Below are positions 1-7,584 of a stretch of 7,584 nt of DNA, in pieces (the stretch's first letter is position 1; each line of letters starts with the position of its first letter). Both the position numbers and the translations under genes were made by a program. Source of the DNA: a bacterium (GTDB taxonomy: Bacteria > UBP15 > UBA6099 > DSWB01); contig JAGUYV010000222.1 in NCBI GenBank assembly GCA_020061125.1, positions 1 to 7,584 on the forward strand, written 5' to 3'. The notes below the pieces were generated by a model, which was not told the origin of the DNA, did not search any database, and was given only the letters and a program-made list of their open reading frames with translations.

Positions 1-539
1 ATCGTGGCCCCGGACCTCGAGATGCCGGGCATGAGCGCTGCGGCCTGGGCCAGCCCGATGAGCAGCGGCACGCTCCACGCGCTGTGCTGCAACTCGCCTT
101 CGCCCTCGCGCACCCGGCCCGCGACAAACAGAAACGCGCCTGTGACGAGCAGGCAGGTTGCGGGAACCCTGATGCTTGAGAACGCGTCATGAATCACATC
201 GTTGAGCGCCACCCCGGCGATGCCCGCAGGCACGGTTCCCACCATGAGCCAGGCCGCGTAGCGCCACGCCTCGGCCTGCGTTCCCGTCCACACAAATCCG
301 GACCCTGGGTCCGCGGGCGCGCGCCCGGCCAGCGCCAGAACCATGTTCGCAATGTCCCTGCGGAAATACACGAAGATCGCGAACAGGGTGCCAAGGTGCA
401 GCATCACATCAAAAAACACCATAGGCTCGCGCAAGCCCATGAAGTGCTGCATGATGGCCAGGTGCGCGCTGCTGCTGATGGGGAGAAATTCCGTGAGGCC
501 CTGGGCCAGGCCCAGGATCAAAGCGTTCAGCCAGTTCAT
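1..539 (-). CDS. uppP: Undecaprenyl-diphosphatase UppP (BacA family), 3' end cut by window edge
   Basis: Integral membrane enzyme that removes a phosphate from undecaprenyl diphosphate, recycling the lipid carrier for peptidoglycan and other envelope polymers. Reading the minus strand from the ATG at 539 gives 179 codons with no stop, so the gene continues beyond base 1; the family is usually about 265-275 residues. Seen directly: an N-terminal LILGLAQGLTEFLPISSSAH motif with Q13, E17 and H26, matching the family's (E/Q)xxxE motif and catalytic His. A second signature, PGISRSG, lies at residues 171-177, with R175 corresponding to the catalytic Arg. Between them are several hydrophobic segments typical of multi-pass membrane proteins. 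The start codon overlaps the stop of the HEAT-repeat gene upstream as ATGA (536-539), so the two are probably translationally coupled and transcribed from the promoter at 1136-1163. No other family fits these two motifs. Confidence 0.95.
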   Translation of the reverse strand, partial: MNWLNALILGLAQGLTEFLPISSSAHLAIMQHFMGLREPMVFFDVMLHLGTLFAIFVYFRRDIANMVLALAGRAPADPGSGFVWTGTQAEAWRYAAWLMVGTVPAGIAGVALNDVIHDAFSSIRVPATCLLVTGAFLFVAGRVREGEGELQHSAWSVPLLIGLAQAAALMPGISRSGAT

Positions 540-1084
540 TTTCCGTCTCTTTTCAGCTCTTCAAGCGCGTGGCGCGCGGCCTCGCACACTGTGGGGTCTT
601 CATCCAGCAGGCATTGGCTGATGGGGTCCACGGCGCGCTTGTCCTTGAGTGCGGCCAGGCTCTTGATGGCGCTGGTTTTGACCCACCAGCTCGGGTGTTC
701 GAGGTAGCTCACCAGCTCGACGACATCGTCGTCGGTGAAGGGCCTGTCTATGCCCAGCTTTTTGAGCGCCTTGCGCGCGGCCTGCCGCACCCTGGGGTTG
801 AAGTCCAGAACAAGCGCCTTGAGGCGATCCACAGCCACGCGATCCCCGAGCTTCGCCAGAACGCCGACGGCTTCCACCTTGCCCTGCCACTGCACATTGC
901 GGAGTTCGCGCAGGAAGTCCGCGACCTGTCGCGAGGTGGCGTGCCGGGACAGCATGCGCACGGCGTAGCGGCGTCTCTTGTCGTCTTCGCTCAACAGGTC
1001 CTGGAACAGGTCGTCCAGGTCCGAGCGTTTGCGCCGGGGCGCGCTGTTGGCCGCGGGCGGAGTTGTGCGGTGTTGTTTGGAGAC
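536..1084 (-). CDS. HEAT-repeat protein upstream of uppP (start codon uncertain)
   Basis: Small soluble alpha-helical repeat protein, about 182 residues from the start used here. The body is four or so HEAT-like helix pairs, with repeats such as RRRYAVRMLSRHA, PRVRQAARKALKKLG, SWWVKTSAIKSLAALKD and PTVCEAARHALEEL. Such repeats normally serve as protein-protein scaffolds, and no catalytic motif is visible. The N-terminal 20 or so residues are basic and low in complexity. Start choice: the open frame reaches an ATG at 1180, but a near-consensus promoter (1136-1163) lies inside that extension and would exclude the ATG from its own transcript. A strong AAGGAGGGG sits at 1092-1100. The codon at the right distance is GTC at 1084, giving an N terminus like (M)SKQHRTTPP. 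GTC is a very rare start; the first ordinary in-frame start further down is TTG at 994. The gene overlaps uppP by four bases, so it may act with the envelope lipid-carrier step, but that is only context. Confidence in the gene is high and in the start is low. Confidence 0.82.
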   Translation of the reverse strand, partial: VSKQHRTTPPAANSAPRRKRSDLDDLFQDLLSEDDKRRRYAVRMLSRHATSRQVADFLRELRNVQWQGKVEAVGVLAKLGDRVAVDRLKALVLDFNPRVRQAARKALKKLGIDRPFTDDDVVELVSYLEHPSWWVKTSAIKSLAALKDKRAVDPISQCLLDEDPTVCEAARHALEELKRDGK

Positions 1085-1091
1085 GGGCCGT

Positions 1092-1100
1092 CCCCTCCTT
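1092..1100 (-). promoter_or_regulatory. Shine-Dalgarno without a canonical start codon
   Basis: Read on the minus strand, this is AAGGAGGGG, nearly the full anti-16S complement. It lies about 30 bases downstream of the predicted transcription start of the HEAT/uppP unit. Seven bases after it comes an in-frame GTC (1084-1082) rather than ATG, GTG or TTG. It is the main reason for placing the HEAT protein start near 1084. Confidence 0.6.
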
Positions 1101-1135
1101 CCGCGGCGACTTCGCGCCGCGCGCGTGTTGTGATG

Positions 1136-1163
1136 ATTATACCCCAATTCCCGATCGTGCCAA
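1136..1163 (-). promoter_or_regulatory. Sigma70-type promoter for the HEAT-repeat/uppP unit
   Basis: On the minus strand there is TTGGCA (-35, 5 of 6 consensus bases, 1163-1158), a 16-base spacer and TATAAT (-10, perfect, 1141-1136). Transcription would begin near 1129, leaving a leader of about 45 bases before the GTC at 1084, with a strong Shine-Dalgarno in between. In this GC-rich sequence such an AT-rich match is unlikely by chance. It lies inside the upstream extension of the HEAT open frame, which argues that the extension is not translated. Confidence 0.7.
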
Positions 1164-1322
1164 GGTTGATACCGGGGCATGCAATGAAAATCGAAAGGCG
1201 CGCAGGCCCCGGATTTGAAATTATGGCGGATTCCGCACAGGGGAGGGGCGCGGCATTAAAATATAGTGTTACCGGAATAACGGCAGGCTGCGCTTCGGGC
1301 GCTATGTTGAGAGGGCGATTCC

Positions 1323-3062
1323 ATGGCGGATGTGATAATCAAGAACGGGACCGTGATCACCGGCTCCGGGAAATCCGCGTTCAAGGCGGATGTGGTCATC
1401 AGCGGGGATTGGATCGAGTCCATAGAAAAAGCACCCGTGCCGGCAAACAACGGCGCGCGCGTGATTGACGCGCAGGGCAAAGTGGTGTGCCCGGGCATCA
1501 TAGACTCGCATTCGCACGCGGACTTGAGCGTGCACCTGCCCAACCAGGCCGAGCTTCTCGCGCCCCTGGTCATGCAGGGCATCACCACCTTCATCGGCGG
1601 CAACTGCGGCATGTCCCTGGCGCCCATTACGGACCGTTTCTATCCCGAGCTGCAGATGTATCTCGAAGGCTTCACGGCGCGGCCCCTGGACGGCAATGTG
1701 TCCTGGCGCAGCATGAACGGATTCATGGAACACATCGAAACCAACGGCACGCTGCTGAACACGGCCCTGCTGGCCCCGCACGGGCTGATTCGCATAGACG
1801 CCATGGGCATGGCCGCGCGCGCGGCCACGCTCGATGAAAAGCGCCGCATGGAGCGCACCCTCGAGGAGTGCCTGGACGCGGGCTGCATCGGCATGTCCAC
1901 CGGCCTCCAATACATGCCCGGCCTGCAGTGCGACACCCGCGAGCTTATCCATCTGGGCAAGGCGCTCAAGAAATACGACGGCATCTACGCAAGCCACCTG
2001 CGCACCTACATGAACGCGCTGGACAAGGCCGTGAACGAACTTGTGGCAGTGAGCCGCCGCAACGACATCCGCGGGCAGATCTCGCACATCTTCTGGGTGC
2101 CGGACATGGGCCTGCTCGGCCCCGTGGTGCGCTATTTCGCGCGCCGCATGATTGATTTGTCCAGGCAGTTTGTGCTGCCCGTGAAGATGGATGCGGAGAT
2201 TGAAAAGATCGCAAACCGAATCGCAAAGCTGCGCCGCCGCGGCATCCGCATCGGCATGGATGTCATGCCCACCACGACCACTTTCACGCACCTGCTCGCA
2301 TATTTCCCCCCATGGGTGCTGGAAGGCAACAGGGACGATGTGGCCGCGCGCCTGTTGAGCAAGCGCATCCGCCGCCAGATGCGCCGCGACATCGAGTTCG
2401 GACAGATGGTGTGGCCGCACACGGGCCGCAACTCTTGGTCCCTGAACCTGTTCAAACTGCTCGGGTGGGAAAGCACGCGCATCATGAGCGTGGTCACGGA
2501 AAAGAACCGCAAGTACGAGGGCATGCGCATCGCCGACATCGCGGCCGAGCAGGGCAAGCACCCGTTCGACGCCATCTGCGATCTGCTCGTGGACGAGGAG
2601 GGCCGCATTCTCGTGTTCTCGTCGCTGGGCGAACCCGAGGACCGGTTCACCGAGCAGTCCATCTTCGCCGCGCTTTCGTCTCCGGATGTGTCCATCAGCA
2701 CGGACACCATCCTCATGGGATTCGGCAAGCCCTCGCACCTGTTCTACGGCGCGTATCCGAAATTTTTCTCGCGCTATGTGCGCGAAATGCACATGCTGAA
2801 TCTCGAGACCGCGGTGCACAAGGTCACGGGCCTGCCCGCGCGGCATTTCAACCTGCGCAAGCGCGGGTTCATCCGCCAGGGCTACTTCGCCGATGTGCTG
2901 GTTTTCGACCCGGACGCGATTTCGCCCAATGTGGATTTCAACCACCCCGTGGGCCGGCCGTCGGGCGTCGAGCATGTATTCATCAACGGCAAGCATGTGG
3001 TGGACGGCGGCGAGTTCCGCAAGGGCGTGGTCGCCGGACAGCTTATCCGCAACAGCGCGTAA
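1323..3062 (+). CDS. N-acyl-D-amino-acid deacylase (D-aminoacylase) family amidohydrolase
   Basis: Metal-dependent TIM-barrel amidohydrolase of 579 residues, predicted to cleave N-acyl groups from D-amino acids or a related amide. The N terminus (ADVIIKNGTVITGSG) is the family's small beta-sandwich, and the barrel opens with PGIIDSHSHADL. Candidate metal ligands are H63 and H65 (HSH), C95 in GNCGMS (the Cys ligand typical of D-aminoacylases), H225 in YASHLR, H255 in QISH and D461 in STD. GMSTGLQYMPG at 190-200 and the RYVRE and GxxADVLVFDP blocks near the C terminus are further family marks. From memory, the Alcaligenes enzyme has 483 residues; C95-H225-H255 spacing is about the same here, but H255-D461 is about 90 residues longer. 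No signal peptide is seen, so it is probably cytoplasmic. The ATG at 1323 follows GAGGG by seven bases. An AT-rich TAAAATATAGT at 1257-1267 may hold a -10, but I see no good -35. Related D-glutamate or dipeptide deacylases cannot be separated by eye. Confidence 0.9.
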   Translation: MADVIIKNGTVITGSGKSAFKADVVISGDWIESIEKAPVPANNGARVIDAQGKVVCPGIIDSHSHADLSVHLPNQAELLAPLVMQGITTFIGGNCGMSLAPITDRFYPELQMYLEGFTARPLDGNVSWRSMNGFMEHIETNGTLLNTALLAPHGLIRIDAMGMAARAATLDEKRRMERTLEECLDAGCIGMSTGLQYMPGLQCDTRELIHLGKALKKYDGIYASHLRTYMNALDKAVNELVAVSRRNDIRGQISHIFWVPDMGLLGPVVRYFARRMIDLSRQFVLPVKMDAEIEKIANRIAKLRRRGIRIGMDVMPTTTTFTHLLAYFPPWVLEGNRDDVAARLLSKRIRRQMRRDIEFGQMVWPHTGRNSWSLNLFKLLGWESTRIMSVVTEKNRKYEGMRIADIAAEQGKHPFDAICDLLVDEEGRILVFSSLGEPEDRFTEQSIFAALSSPDVSISTDTILMGFGKPSHLFYGAYPKFFSRYVREMHMLNLETAVHKVTGLPARHFNLRKRGFIRQGYFADVLVFDPDAISPNVDFNHPVGRPSGVEHVFINGKHVVDGGEFRKGVVAGQLIRNSA

Positions 3063-3080
3063 TCGCGCCCGCTATTTTTT
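3055..3080 (+). terminator. Possible short intrinsic terminator of the deacylase gene
   Basis: A perfect 5-bp GC stem (GCGCG at 3055-3059 paired with CGCGC at 3064-3068) closes a TAAT loop that contains the stop codon. Six T residues follow at 3075-3080 after a six-base gap. The stem is short and the T tract is offset, so it is weak by usual standards. It sits exactly at the convergent junction and overlaps the 3' end of the opposing gene. On the minus strand there is no T tract after the stem, so it would work for the plus strand only. Confidence 0.3.
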
Positions 3081-3959
3081 CAGTTGAGCAATGACATAAT
3101 CGGCGTACAGGCCGGCGGCGTCTAGGCCGCTGGTTTCGCGAATGCCGCGGAACCCGCCGAAGGCGGAGACCTCGAGGGCCAGGGGGCCGCGGGGCGATTC
3201 GATGATGTCCACGCAGGTGAATGTCAGGTTGAAGGGCGCCTGGGCGCGGCGCGCGATTTCGATGGTTTCCGCGGACGGCTCGAAGGGTTCGTAGCGGCCG
3301 CCCGACGCGGTGGTGGTGTTCCACGAGCCGCCTCCGCTGCACCGGGCGTAGGTGGTGAGGTATTCGCCGCCCAAAAAAGCCACGCCCAGGTCGCACCCTT
3401 CATGGTCCTCGATTTTCTGGATGTACATGACCCGGTTTTCCTGCTGATAGGCGTGCACCTGATCGCGGGCGTCCGGCCCGCGCGCGATGACTTTCATGCC
3501 CCGCGCCTTGGAGGTGTACATGGGTTTGAACACCGCCGAGCCGTATTCGTTGAGCGCGTTCAGGGCTTCGTCCATATCCTCGGTGATGGTGGTGGGCGGC
3601 ATGGGAATGCCGGACAGGCGCATGGTCACGGTGCAGCTCAAACGGTCCATGACGCGCATCATGGACAGGGGCGGCGAGAAAACGGGCAGCCCCTGCCCGT
3701 GCAGCAGGCGCAGCATTTCAAGCCGGTCCAGGAGGTCCGGAGAATACCGCGCCCCGATTTTCTTCACGATCAGCGCGTCCAGGTCCAGGAGGTTGGTTTC
3801 TCCGAACCAGGCCGCGCCCTCATTCACATCCACACGCACGCGGTCCATTTCCACAAGCATGCGAAAGCCCGTGCGCTCGGCCACGGCGTCGGCCAGGCGT
3901 TCGCTGGACCAGCCGCCGGGGGTTCCCACCACTGCTATTTTCCATGTGTGCGAAGTCAT
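3072..3959 (-). CDS. RimK-like ATP-grasp ligase, probable 'GAK system' type
   Basis: ATP-grasp enzyme of 295 residues, expected to activate a carboxylate as an acyl-phosphate and join it to an amine or thiol nucleophile; the substrate is unknown. The N terminus KIAVVGTPGGWSS (7-19) is a Rossmann-like strand with a Gly-rich turn. DRLSCTVTMRLSGIPMPPT (105-123) matches the RimK 'D+ ... L...gIP.P.T' region. Then come VFKPMYTSKARGMKVI (143-158, ATP-binding Lys K145 and the flexible glycine-rich loop), YIQKIE (179-184), R206 with WNTTTASGG (213-221), and VDIIES...LALEVSAFGGFRGI (250-273) supplying the metal-binding acids. The usual EVN Asn is Ser here (S265). Start: ATG 3959 shares one base with the upstream stop (TGATG), so translation is coupled; the longer open frame upstream only re-reads the kinase gene. 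It is the last gene of the four-gene operon. The sequence style (GTPGGWSS, EVSAFGGF) fits my memory of the GAK-system ATP-grasp family in Desulfovibrio, which needs a model search to confirm. Confidence 0.88.
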   Translation of the reverse strand: MTSHTWKIAVVGTPGGWSSERLADAVAERTGFRMLVEMDRVRVDVNEGAAWFGETNLLDLDALIVKKIGARYSPDLLDRLEMLRLLHGQGLPVFSPPLSMMRVMDRLSCTVTMRLSGIPMPPTTITEDMDEALNALNEYGSAVFKPMYTSKARGMKVIARGPDARDQVHAYQQENRVMYIQKIEDHEGCDLGVAFLGGEYLTTYARCSGGGSWNTTTASGGRYEPFEPSAETIEIARRAQAPFNLTFTCVDIIESPRGPLALEVSAFGGFRGIRETSGLDAAGLYADYVIAQLKK

Positions 3960-5611
3960 CAGTAGTAAAGCGCCGCCTCGGGGAGTTTGAAGTCTTCCCA
4001 CCCGCGTTCGCAGTGCGAACCGGCATGGGATGCGATACGCTCGAGCAGGAAATGGGCGCGCAGGAACATGGCGCGCGCAAAGGGTTCGTTCAGCTCGAAG
4101 CGCGTGGAGGTGTAGAACGAGCGCGCCAGGGCCAGGGCCATGCGGGACTCGAAGGTGCGGTCGTCCCACTCGCGGGCCACGGTTGCGGCGAAGTCGTACA
4201 GGGTGCGGATCTGGGCGTTCAGCCGCCGCCTCATGCGCGTCTTGAACACCGGAATGCGGAAGTGCGAAATGATGAGCACGGCCATGTCCTGTACATAATC
4301 GGCGTAGGCCGAGCGATGCAGATCTATATAGTGAACCTTGTTGGAGTCGGGGTTGTAAACGATGTTGTTGAGATTGAAGTCGCCGTGAATGAGCACGGAG
4401 AAGGGAGGGGCGAGCGCGTTCTGGATCTCCATGCAACCGTCGAGAAGCTGCTGGGTGGAAGCGGAGCGGGCGTCGCCCACGGCGGTTTCCGGGCGCATGA
4501 AATGAGGGTAGACCTTGCGCACATCTTTGAGCCGCGCGGGGATTTGCTCGATGTAGTCAATGCGTGGCGGCTCGGGCGTGCGGGTGGCGGTCCAGACCGC
4601 GCCGGTTGTGCTCTTGAGAGCGGCGGTGGCGCGAGCGAGCAGGGCTTCGTCCGCGTTCAGCAACACCTCGTCGAAGGTGTGTCCGGGCAGGAACTCGATG
4701 AGCATGCCCGCGGTTTCGCCGGTTTCGCGGTAGCTAATCACACGAGGGGCCAGGCCCGGAGCCAGGTCCGCCCAGCGGTCCAGGCCCGCTTTTTCCGCGC
4801 GCATTTTCGGAATTGCGCCTTCCTTGAAAATGCCGTCCCTTCGGCGTTCTTCCGTGGCGCCCTGCTCGATGCGGCTCACGCGGCATCCCGAGCGCGTGCC
4901 CAGGATCGCTTCCAGATCCATGTCGGCCATGGATGTGTCGAACCCGGACTCCTCGAGGTTCTGCCGCAGGGCTTCGAACTGGTGGATTTTGATCTTCTGC
5001 CCGAGGATGGAAAAGATCAGGGCTTCGCCGATGTTGAGCAGGGAATCGCCCATGCGCTCGAAGTAGCGGAAGATGAAAAGAATGGTGAGCAGGGTCTGGC
5101 TGTCGCCGCCGGAGTTCATCTCGGCGAGGATGCGGTCGAAGTAGATTTTGAACAGGCGGTCGAGTTCGGGTTCCGCGCGGCAGATGGCCAGCGCGTCGGC
5201 GAAGCTGCGGTTTTCGAAGGCCTCGGCCACGCCCGCGATGGTGTTGCTGATCACGGAAAAGCATTCGGCGTGGTTGTAGTTTTCGAGTACGGCCGGGTCT
5301 TTGAGATGCGCAACCTGTCCGAGGATGTTGATGCAGTTGTCGGCGATGCGTTCGAGGTTGACCGCGCCGATCTGGATGCCGCGGATTTCGCTGATGGCGT
5401 CCGGGCGCATATTTTTGCCCGCGCCGATGAGCGCGTAGCACTGGTTTTCGATGGTGTTCTTGAGGTTGTCCACATAGTCGTCGCGGGCGGTGATGCGGTC
5501 GTGGCCCGCGGCCGTGGGGTTTTTCATCCACTCATAGGTGGCGTTGACCAGGCTGTGGGTCTCGAGGGCGATGAAGCGGAAGTTTTCGTGCAGTCCGTCG
5601 AAGAGGATCAT
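3959..5611 (-). CDS. PhoU-like domain fused to APH-like (aminoglycoside phosphotransferase fold) kinase
   Basis: Two-domain cytoplasmic protein of 550 residues. Residues 1-210 are helical and PhoU-like, with two copies of the metal-binding E(x)3D helix: NLERIADNCINI (85-96) and RYFERMGDSLLNIGEAL (182-198). Residues 250-550 form an APH/choline-kinase fold: FKEG with probable ATP Lys K263, hinge MLIEFLPG (303-310), catalytic loop HGDFNLNNIVYN (409-420; H409, D411, N416) and metal-binding YIDLH (428-432, D430). All catalytic residues appear intact, so it should phosphorylate a small molecule or protein. In this fold family the substrate is not predictable from the motifs, and antibiotic resistance should not be assumed. 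PhoU proteins usually sense phosphate status beside Pst transporters or kinases, but no pst or pho genes are nearby. Start: ATG at 5611 lies two bases after the amphi-Trp stop; a longer frame to 5674 only re-reads the amphi-Trp gene. Its stop overlaps the ATP-grasp ATG. The fusion is unusual to me. Confidence 0.88.
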   Translation of the reverse strand: MILFDGLHENFRFIALETHSLVNATYEWMKNPTAAGHDRITARDDYVDNLKNTIENQCYALIGAGKNMRPDAISEIRGIQIGAVNLERIADNCINILGQVAHLKDPAVLENYNHAECFSVISNTIAGVAEAFENRSFADALAICRAEPELDRLFKIYFDRILAEMNSGGDSQTLLTILFIFRYFERMGDSLLNIGEALIFSILGQKIKIHQFEALRQNLEESGFDTSMADMDLEAILGTRSGCRVSRIEQGATEERRRDGIFKEGAIPKMRAEKAGLDRWADLAPGLAPRVISYRETGETAGMLIEFLPGHTFDEVLLNADEALLARATAALKSTTGAVWTATRTPEPPRIDYIEQIPARLKDVRKVYPHFMRPETAVGDARSASTQQLLDGCMEIQNALAPPFSVLIHGDFNLNNIVYNPDSNKVHYIDLHRSAYADYVQDMAVLIISHFRIPVFKTRMRRRLNAQIRTLYDFAATVAREWDDRTFESRMALALARSFYTSTRFELNEPFARAMFLRAHFLLERIASHAGSHCERGWEDFKLPEAALYY

Positions 5612-5613
5612 GG

Positions 5614-5886
5614 TCAGGAAATGGCGAGGGACTCCTTGTCGGGCGCGGCAGGGTCCGAGCCGGGTTCTTTCCACATGATTTTAATCTGGATGGTGGAGTC
5701 GGCGCCCTTGCGGCGGGCGCGCACGGACAGGTGGAGCAGGCCGCTTGGCGCGAGGATCATTTCATCGTCGCCGGACGCGAACCGGATTTCCCCTTTGGCC
5801 ATGCCCTTGCGCAGTGCCTTGAGATATTCGCCGATGCTGGCGGCGTCGTGCAGGGCCTCGTATTCGAAATTTTCCTTGGCGGCCAT
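5614..5886 (-). CDS. Amphi-Trp domain protein
   Basis: Small protein of 90 residues built almost entirely of the amphi-Trp domain, a short uncharacterised domain named for alternating hydrophobic strands and a conserved Trp. Seen: the opening FEYEA (7-11), helix SIGEYLKALRKGMAKGEI (17-34), then strands EMILAP (42-47), LLHLSVRARRK (50-60) and STIQIKIMWKEP (64-75) with W72. The last 15 residues look disordered. No catalytic residues are apparent, so a binding or adaptor role is more likely than an enzymatic one. The ATG at 5886 is preceded by GGAGGA at 5895-5900 with an eight-base spacer, clearly better than the upstream ATG at 5946, which lies inside the previous gene. It is 22 bases downstream of the PHP-like gene and two bases upstream of the PhoU-kinase gene. 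Amphi-Trp genes beside an ATP-grasp gene and a kinase are the defining trio of the GAK neighbourhood (from memory). Confidence 0.85.
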   Translation of the reverse strand: MAAKENFEYEALHDAASIGEYLKALRKGMAKGEIRFASGDDEMILAPSGLLHLSVRARRKGADSTIQIKIMWKEPGSDPAAPDKESLAIS

Positions 5887-5908
5887 GGCGTGTGTCCTCC
5901 GGTCCGGA

Positions 5909-7063
5909 TCAGGCGTGCAGGCGCTCGCGGTACTCGTTGATGACATCCGCGCGATCCATATTGGCGATGATGAGGTTCTTGCGCGTGTCCAGGTCGTCCC
6001 ATGCGGGCTGCACGCCGATCTCGCGGCCCGCCTTGCTTTTGACCTGGAGCGCGGGCGGGCGCACCTTCTCGCCCAGGTGCGTGTCGTCGCCCATGAAAAT
6101 CAGCATGCGCCGGTGTCCGGGCGGATGCTTGCTGTTTGTGCGCACCACCACGGAAATCAGAAAATCGGTGAGCGTGTGGGACTGCGGGTTCCACACCTCG
6201 AGGCCGTTGACATCGTAATCCGCCAGCAGAATGGGCCAGAACTGCTCGGGGTGCGGAATCACGATGCGCGCGCCCAGGCCGCGGGCCTCCTCGATGATCT
6301 CCACGGTGCGGTAAAAATACTTCATGGAAAACTCGGCCTTGACGATGAGCTTGACGGCCTTGAGATAGCTCTGCGCGCGCCGGATGGCGCGATCCCCGTA
6401 TGCCGGCGCCAGGGCGTCGAACCAGTCCCGCAGCAGCTTGTTCTTGAGGGACAGGGGCGGGACTTTTTCAAGGTTGCGATCAAGCAACTCCATGAGTTTT
6501 TTTGTATAGACCCGGCAGAACTTGATTGTCTCTTTGTCCGCGCCGGTCTCCTCGACCGCGGCTTCGATGCGGCGCTTGTCGGGCTTGACGATGGTGTCCA
6601 GCATGTCGAAGAGCTGGGACGAGCGGTACCTTGCGGTGTAGGCGAGCATGGACACGAGGCGGGACGCCCTGGCGCCGCGGTCCGCGGTCATGTGCAGCAG
6701 CAGTTGCACCTTCTGGTTGAAGCGCGTGGAGAAGCAGTCCACCTCCACGCCCGAGTATTCGCCGATTGTCAGGAGGACATTGTGCTGCGTGGGAATGATG
6801 AGCGCGTTGTGCGCGTTGGGGAACATGGCGCGGATGCGCTGCTCGATGAGATCCAGGGGCACGAACTCGGGGTGCCAGTGCACGGCCAGCAGATCTTCCT
6901 GGTGCGGGAACACCTCGGGCGGGGTGACGATGCGGCGGCGCTGCTCCTCGTCCAGATCCGTGCTCACCGTTTCCCAGAAGATGCGCTCATCCTCGTCCGT
7001 GATGTCCTCGACCAGGCGGTCAATGTCCAAGACCGCGCGGTTGTTGCCGTCAACCGGTTCCAT
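5909..7063 (-). CDS. PHP-superfamily-like metal-dependent phosphoesterase with helical insertion
   Basis: Cytoplasmic protein of 384 residues, first gene of the operon. I do not recognise a named family, but all four PHP metal motifs can be placed in order: HxH in LLAVHWHPEF (H62, H64), a Glu in GVEVDC (E107), His in IVIPHPEQ (H271) and DxH in MGDDTHLGE (D327, H329). GLEVWNP (287-293) resembles the PHP G(I/V)E-x-N strand. Between E107 and H271 lies a region of about 140 residues that looks mostly helical and charged (about 125-260), longer than in simple PHP phosphatases. Members of the fold hydrolyse phosphate monoesters or, in polymerases, 3' nucleotides, so a phosphoesterase role is inferred. 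The first 50 residues are acidic with no motif. The ATG at 7063 follows AGGGA (7075-7071) by seven bases, downstream of a TATAAT at 7122-7117. Alternatives are a degenerate PHP fold with a non-enzymatic role, or another alpha/beta hydrolase-like barrel. Confidence 0.7.
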   Translation of the reverse strand: MEPVDGNNRAVLDIDRLVEDITDEDERIFWETVSTDLDEEQRRRIVTPPEVFPHQEDLLAVHWHPEFVPLDLIEQRIRAMFPNAHNALIIPTQHNVLLTIGEYSGVEVDCFSTRFNQKVQLLLHMTADRGARASRLVSMLAYTARYRSSQLFDMLDTIVKPDKRRIEAAVEETGADKETIKFCRVYTKKLMELLDRNLEKVPPLSLKNKLLRDWFDALAPAYGDRAIRRAQSYLKAVKLIVKAEFSMKYFYRTVEIIEEARGLGARIVIPHPEQFWPILLADYDVNGLEVWNPQSHTLTDFLISVVVRTNSKHPPGHRRMLIFMGDDTHLGEKVRPPALQVKSKAGREIGVQPAWDDLDTRKNLIIANMDRADVINEYRERLHA

Positions 7064-7251: not shown

Positions 7252-7584
7252 ATGCTTAACTACTACCAGTTGCTTGACCTCGAAGATTTCGCGCCCGCGG
7301 AAGAAATCCGCAGGGCGTACCGTGAGCGCGCGCGGCAGTATCATCCCGATCGCGTGAACACGCTCGGCCCCAAACTGCGCGCCATGGCCGAGAGCGAAAT
7401 GGCGGTCATCAACCAGGCATACGAGCAGTTGAGCGATCCGGAGCTTCGGGAGGAGTTCGACGCCTGGCTGCGCCTTGCGCGCGAGGGCAAGGCGTTCAAG
7501 GGTTGCGCGCGGTGCGGCCTGGAGTTTGCGCCGCCCCCCGGCCATGAGCTTGTGGCGCTGTGCCCGGCGTGCAGGCGCTTCGGG
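7252..7584 (+). CDS. DnaJ-like J-domain protein with zinc ribbon, 3' end cut by window edge
   Basis: Partial gene, 111 codons to the window end without a stop. Residues 2-72 are a J domain: NYYQLLDLEDFAPAEEIRRAYRERARQYHPDR, with the HPD tripeptide at 31-33 that stimulates DnaK ATPase, followed by the usual INQAYEQLSDPELREEFD helix. Next is a zinc-ribbon-like pair, CARC (85-88) and CPAC (104-107), directly after the J domain. The Gly/Phe linker and four-repeat zinc centre of true DnaJ are absent so far, so this is a specialised co-chaperone rather than the housekeeping DnaJ. The ATG at 7252 follows GGAGG (7237-7241) with a ten-base spacer and is downstream of the promoter at 7169-7197. It is divergent from the PHP-like operon; a functional link is possible but unproven. 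Confidence 0.88.
   Translation, partial: MLNYYQLLDLEDFAPAEEIRRAYRERARQYHPDRVNTLGPKLRAMAESEMAVINQAYEQLSDPELREEFDAWLRLAREGKAFKGCARCGLEFAPPPGHELVALCPACRRFG

Follow-up and report, generated by a model that had tools for sequence, protein, structure and literature searches.

The window analysed here, 7,584 nucleotides in length, makes up the entire contig C451 of a MAG of 4.1 Mb and 79% completeness. It carries four minus-strand open reading frames in an operon-like array, spaced by 22 and 2 bases and then overlapping by one base at position 3959. Genes, strand, coordinates and spacing agree with an earlier sequence-only reading of this DNA:

5909..7063, minus strand: PHP-fold metal-dependent phosphoesterase (predicted) of the GAK operon, 384 aa, recognised by fold and conserved residues
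5614..5886, minus strand: amphi-Trp protein, first paralogue (amphi-Trp1), 90 aa, TIGR04354 and PF20068, tail ending ...SLAIS
3959..5611, minus strand: fusion of a PhoU domain and an APH-type kinase (PhoU-APH), 550 aa, PF01895 and PF01636
3072..3959, minus strand: GAK system ATP-grasp ligase, RimK/MptN-like, 295 aa, TIGR04356

Ribosome-binding-like sequences (GGGAG and GGAGG) precede the first two genes. The genes had also been placed behind one promoter, which was not borne out: a consensus scan of the minus strand upstream of 7063 found no sigma-70-like site, so the only arguments for co-transcription are gene spacing and a conserved order. The ATP-grasp stop at 3072 converges on the stop (3062) of a plus-strand amidohydrolase gene (1323-3062), and the upstream neighbour of the first gene is a divergent DnaJ-domain gene starting at ~7252 (7252-7584, plus strand), whose product has a Cys-rich C-terminal segment (CARCGLEF...CPAC). 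The window further encodes a HEAT-repeat protein (536-1180, minus strand) and, by sequence reading only, a UppP-like membrane protein (3-539, minus strand). Rfam searches of the window and 15 relatives revealed neither an M-box nor any other riboswitch.

Protein families at the locus

No Pfam or NCBIfam family matched the product of the first gene. Its AlphaFold2 model (mean pLDDT 90.9) was aligned by VIA-align to the PHP enzyme 3o0f with Z 17.0 (243 residues, rmsd 3.3), to RNase AM 9etk with Z 15.4 and to 2yb1 with Z 15.3, followed by other PHP domains at Z 14.3 to 9.6 and by everything else at 5.1 or less. The metal-binding His/Asp/Glu set of the PHP superfamily is present as H62, H64, E66, H94, E107, H124, H271, D327 and H329, each at least 95% conserved across 57 aligned sequences and matched to the metal ligands of 2yb1 by motif order. 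On this model the first gene encodes a PHP-fold enzyme and predicted phosphoesterase, as had been proposed from the letters. The protein shares its fold (Z 15-17) and metal-ligand pattern with the PHP phosphoesterases 3o0f, 9etk and 2yb1, but differs from them in its low identity (13-18%), a longer helical segment around residues 127-260 and the lack of a sequence family. A viral collection scanned with the protein contained no relatives, and a PDB sequence search with the PHP profile returned nothing useful. At ~11 loci (for example L073:13849-16371; L numbers denote loci), a glycosyltransferase of ~840 aa whose N-terminus is PHP-like ('LHVHSKYS...') is encoded close to GAK, in many cases on the opposite strand.

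The second gene product matches TIGR04354 at 60.3 bits (cut-off 31) and PF20068 at 27.3 (cut-off 27), confirming its assignment as a GAK amphi-Trp protein. Its model consists of one helix and a four-stranded sheet that ends at an invariant Trp; the tail beyond it is poorly ordered. Proteins of the amphi-Trp1 type share the C-terminal pattern [LI]-x-[IV]-x-[ST]. A [LIMV]-x-[IV] motif lies 10-14 residues past the Trp in 59 of 60 amphi-Trp1 sequences, usually no more than 3 residues from the C-terminus, and a Ser/Thr stands two residues after the motif in 40 of 48 (linker Ser/Thr, 17%); as the motif definition comes from the sequences counted, the counts describe rather than test it. Three non-GAK amphi-Trps with readable ends lack the motif: two terminate 2-5 residues beyond the Trp, and the third has a longer, motif-free tail. 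Tails of the second paralogue (amphi-Trp2) often show a similar motif and then low-complexity sequence, and the downstream amphi-Trp2 proteins of L019, L021, L032, L057 and L096 have long low-complexity tails that are Lys/Ala/Pro-rich, acidic or His/Cys-rich. A fold search with amphi-Trp gave no convincing match, and we claim neither an HPr-like nor a new fold; a PDB sequence search with the amphi-Trp profile yielded nothing useful, the best matches being designed proteins. The XXXCH profile also matches amphi-Trp proteins (about 20-71 bits), and from this cross-match the N-terminal part of XXXCH proteins appears to be a third amphi-Trp-like domain of the full operon. XXXCH proteins with such an N-terminal region are encoded at L017:6335-6850 and at about 36 other loci.

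PhoU-APH matches PF01895 (67.3 bits) and PF01636 (45.3 bits), so the fusion of PhoU with an APH-type kinase read from the sequence stands. It has the two PhoU repeats of the phosphate-signalling protein PhoU; unlike PhoU proper, it falls below the PhoU equivalog cut-off (TIGR02135, 68.7 versus 130.25) and is joined to a kinase. The kinase residues K263, E273, H409-G-D411-x-N413, N416 and D430 are at least 95% conserved among relatives. Weak similarity to APH(3') (36.9 bits) could be taken to mean an aminoglycoside resistance kinase, but this score lies far below the NCBIfam cut-off of 205 and the protein is PhoU-fused within a GAK setting; we rejected this identity and give it practically no credence.

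The ATP-grasp protein scores 433.1 bits against TIGR04356 (cut-off 300), which makes it a GAK ligase as originally called. It belongs to the same fold family as the RimK, MptN and LysX ligases and scores below their cut-offs: it reaches 104.5 bits against 143.4 for the RimK alpha-L-glutamate ligase model TIGR00768, and its next best NCBIfam match is the tetrahydromethanopterin:glutamate ligase MptN (145 bits). In alignment it retains K145, D251 and E263, the ATP-site lysine and two metal ligands of RimK; a conserved Ser265 stands at the position of RimK's metal-binding Asn, and SGG replaces the substrate-side RGG of RimK and LysX. Because the RimK Asn and the Arg of RGG are replaced, the amino-acid partner of the ligase is not readable from the sequence.

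GAK operons with and without HprK

A one-genome-per-species scan with the ATP-grasp alignment recovered at least 523 confirmed relatives among at least 590 pattern matches. Loci of the best 80 of these relatives were read with flanks of up to 10 kb and mechanically drawn ORFs, and a gene table was compiled from iterative profiles over 88 loci, many of which end at contig ends. The usual operon order is XXXCH, PHP, amphi-Trp1, PhoU-APH, ATP-grasp, HprK_B, CofD, amphi-Trp2. Across the 88 loci read (best 80 of at least 523 relatives), PhoU-APH is present in 79, HprK_B in 78, amphi-Trp in 75, and PHP and CofD in 60 each. PhoU-APH lies immediately before the ATP-grasp in 67 of the 76 loci with room in this best-80 sample, and PHP, amphi-Trp and PhoU-APH precede it in that order in 44 of the 68 loci with enough upstream DNA, so the four-gene arrangement is not chance. 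The groups represented include Thermodesulfobacteriota, Pseudomonadota, Myxococcota, Zixiibacteriota and Eiseniibacteriota, and the expectation that all four genes would co-occur repeatedly in distant genomes is thus upheld. A Pfam scan of 122 neighbours identified no other strongly recurring function.

The sequence-only reading had interpreted the locus as a GAK variant in which an APH-PhoU kinase takes the place of HprK and a PHP enzyme is added. PhoU-APH is indeed the sole kinase in the window and in about five other loci, but PhoU-APH and HprK_B coexist in the ordinary operon and in the great majority of loci, PHP is an ordinary member, and HprK_B without PhoU-APH, the reverse reduction, exists too (L092, L093, L095). 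The operon table refutes the replacement, to which we assign very little probability and which survives only as the statement that HprK is dispensable. Judged by gene content, PhoU-APH and PHP are standard yet unnamed GAK parts: together they make up half of the window operon, and no GAK-named NCBIfam model matched either. All five Paracoccaceae loci lack the PHP gene and have in their operon a histidine phosphatase together with a metallophosphoesterase, a pair never found alongside PHP; these loci are one clade and hence one event. The presence of two other phosphatases in the PHP slot supports a phosphatase role for PHP.

Compared with the GAK system of the NCBIfam models (TIGR04354, 04355, 04356, 04357, 04358), the window has the same gene order and an ATP-grasp and an amphi-Trp protein that pass the cut-offs, but no HprK_B, CofD, XXXCH or second amphi-Trp. 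A search of the open-access literature found no paper on the GAK system, whose families are named in the NCBI library without a function. The models of the HprK-related kinases HprK_A and HprK_B (TIGR04352/04355) have no match in the window and reach at best 32.9 and 27.5 bits (against 200) in its own 79%-complete genome; the best match there to the CofD-like TIGR04357 is a YvcK-like protein (87.5 versus 340 bits), and XXXCH (TIGR04358) has no match in the window beyond the weak amphi-Trp cross-match. The same genome encodes an HprK-like protein beside a radical-SAM gene (L011, contig C202) that is by score unrelated to GAK. We file the window as an HprK-less GAK variant rather than a complete GAK system, its peculiarity being loss, not replacement.

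Similar reduced loci occur at L043, L055 and L078, in genomes that each have one GAK ATP-grasp and no HprK_B; CofD is missing and the ligase kept in these as in the window. L055 comes from a cultured isolate, Desulfocicer vacuolatum DSM 3385, so genome incompleteness cannot explain all HprK-less cases; its locus has no amphi-Trp ORF between PHP and PhoU-APH. The small genome of L088 also has a single GAK ATP-grasp and no HprK_B, with CofD kept at the locus. L044 is the additional copy of a genome that also carries a full set (L034). L033, L035, L061 and L068 carry HprK_B, their HprK ORFs being drawn with over-long starts. L089 (1156-2679) was rejected as an HprK loss: residues 1-198 of HprK_B are joined in frame to CofD residue 83 onwards, through either a deletion fusion or an assembly error. 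A quick tree of ATP-grasp sequences scatters the HprK-less rows and places the window beside the HprK-positive L030 and L031 (support 88); with HprK-containing sisters and such scatter, the loss looks repeated and secondary. The ATP-grasp is absent from six other searched genomes of the window's order, which makes horizontal gain of the operon possible.

The organism could instead hold a full GAK system, with HprK_B and CofD on a contig missing from the MAG or lost by misassembly at 3062-3072. The 79% completeness of the genome and the presence of HprK_B and CofD in the sister loci L030 and L031 favour this explanation. We nevertheless consider it unlikely, given that 9 bp, without any remnant, separate the operon from the convergent next gene and that HprK-less genomes, including that of an isolate, exist.

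Neighbouring phosphate and magnesium transport genes

Genes for phosphate and magnesium transport are found next to GAK operons far more often than expected by chance. In 49 GAK genomes, 5 of 51 over-cut-off pstB genes lie within 10 kb of GAK versus 0.25 expected (P = 6e-6), and in 48 genomes 5 of 12 mgtA genes do so versus 0.075 expected (P = 2e-8, or P = 7e-5 when counted as 3 independent events); these statistics come from the best 80 of at least 523 relatives and, bar the three-event mgtA correction, treat loci as independent. The pst-phoU genes are directly upstream of GAK in L024 and L065, pst genes lie upstream of PHP in L083, pstB-phoU is near GAK in L038, L045 and L015, and pstS is at the edge of L027. 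In L055 a PHO4-family (Pit) transporter gene precedes PHP by about 145 bp. The magnesium-translocating P-type ATPase gene mgtA (TIGR01524) is beside GAK in L028, L054, L056, L061, L091 and L092, and both mgtA genes of genome G411 adjoin its two GAK loci. On the same strand, mgtA follows HprK_B at about 142 bp (L056) and 54 bp (L091) and precedes the ATP-grasp by about 152 bp (L092). Most GAK loci read have no pst or mgtA neighbour, and none is present in the 7.6 kb of the window. Arsenate-reductase-like genes (LMW phosphatase fold) are also encoded near GAK in L062, L065, L073, L082, L086, L087 and L094.

Interactions of PhoU with PhoR and PstB are reported, as is activation of PhoB/PhoR by cytoplasmic Mg2+ starvation even when phosphate is abundant (PMC10055408); the substrate of Pit is described as metal-phosphate complexes (PMC2797804). 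In combination with these reports, the simplest reading of a PhoU-kinase encoded beside pst, pit and mgtA is a role in phosphate/Mg2+ control. As far as we found, this linkage is the first tie of the GAK operon to phosphate and magnesium uptake genes.

Proposed function and alternatives

We tentatively read the window as a reduced GAK operon encoding a phosphate/Mg2+-linked circuit with opposed kinase and phosphatase activities and a ligase that modifies the amphi-Trp tail. The system would respond to cytoplasmic phosphate/Mg2+ status, to which the PhoU domain would couple the APH-type kinase; the kinase would phosphorylate an acceptor and the PHP enzyme take the phosphate off. The RimK-like ligase, after activation by ATP, would couple a carboxylate to an amino acid or short peptide, in a manner similar to the extension of ribosomal protein S6 by RimK. 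The conserved free C-terminus of amphi-Trp1, encoded beside a RimK-type ligase, suggests that the acceptor is most likely the exposed tail of this small protein, although the tail might just serve as a docking strand. An optional second layer, lost from the window operon, would be formed by HprK_B, CofD and the other amphi-Trp-like proteins. CofD and HprK are hard to fit within a purely protein-modifying scheme, and a single substrate common to all GAK enzymes is a guess. A bolder proposal, that GAK is a protein-modification circuit responsive to phosphate/Mg2+, in which the PHP phosphatase and a PhoU-gated kinase would govern amino-acid addition by the RimK-like ligase to the conserved amphi-Trp C-terminus as a new type of reversible tag in anaerobic bacteria, is a long shot.

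GAK enzymes may instead make or recycle a small phosphorylated molecule, with PhoU-APH phosphorylating a metabolite, the CofD-like protein transferring a phospho group, an MptN/CofF-like ATP-grasp adding one or more glutamates, PHP dephosphorylating and amphi-Trp binding the product. MptN as the ligase's next best match (145 bits), the CofD-like gene in 60 of the 88 loci read (best 80 of at least 523 relatives), the resemblance of PHP to small-molecule phosphatases such as 2yb1 and a NUDIX gene in one locus are all consistent with such chemistry. Yet the ligase is kept where CofD is missing (the window, L043, L055 and L078), no scaffold synthase recurs in the neighbourhoods, and the conserved amphi-Trp1 tail is left unexplained, so that we hold this alternative to be somewhat doubtful. 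A storage-granule system, in which amphi-Trp proteins coat a granule whose polymer the enzymes make, would account for the Lys/Ala/Pro-rich low-complexity tails of several amphi-Trp2 proteins, as some granule and DNA-binding proteins have tails of this kind. These tails range from basic through acidic to His-rich, however, and no polymerase or known phasin is prominent nearby, which makes a granule function very improbable.

Together these results correct the GAK gene list, to which PHP and PhoU-APH belong as standard members and HprK as a dispensable one. They offer phosphate and magnesium uptake as the first testable functional setting for GAK, and point to the amphi-Trp C-terminus as its likely target. 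If the proposed circuit is true, sulfate reducers and their relatives would carry an unknown layer of phosphate/Mg2+ control.
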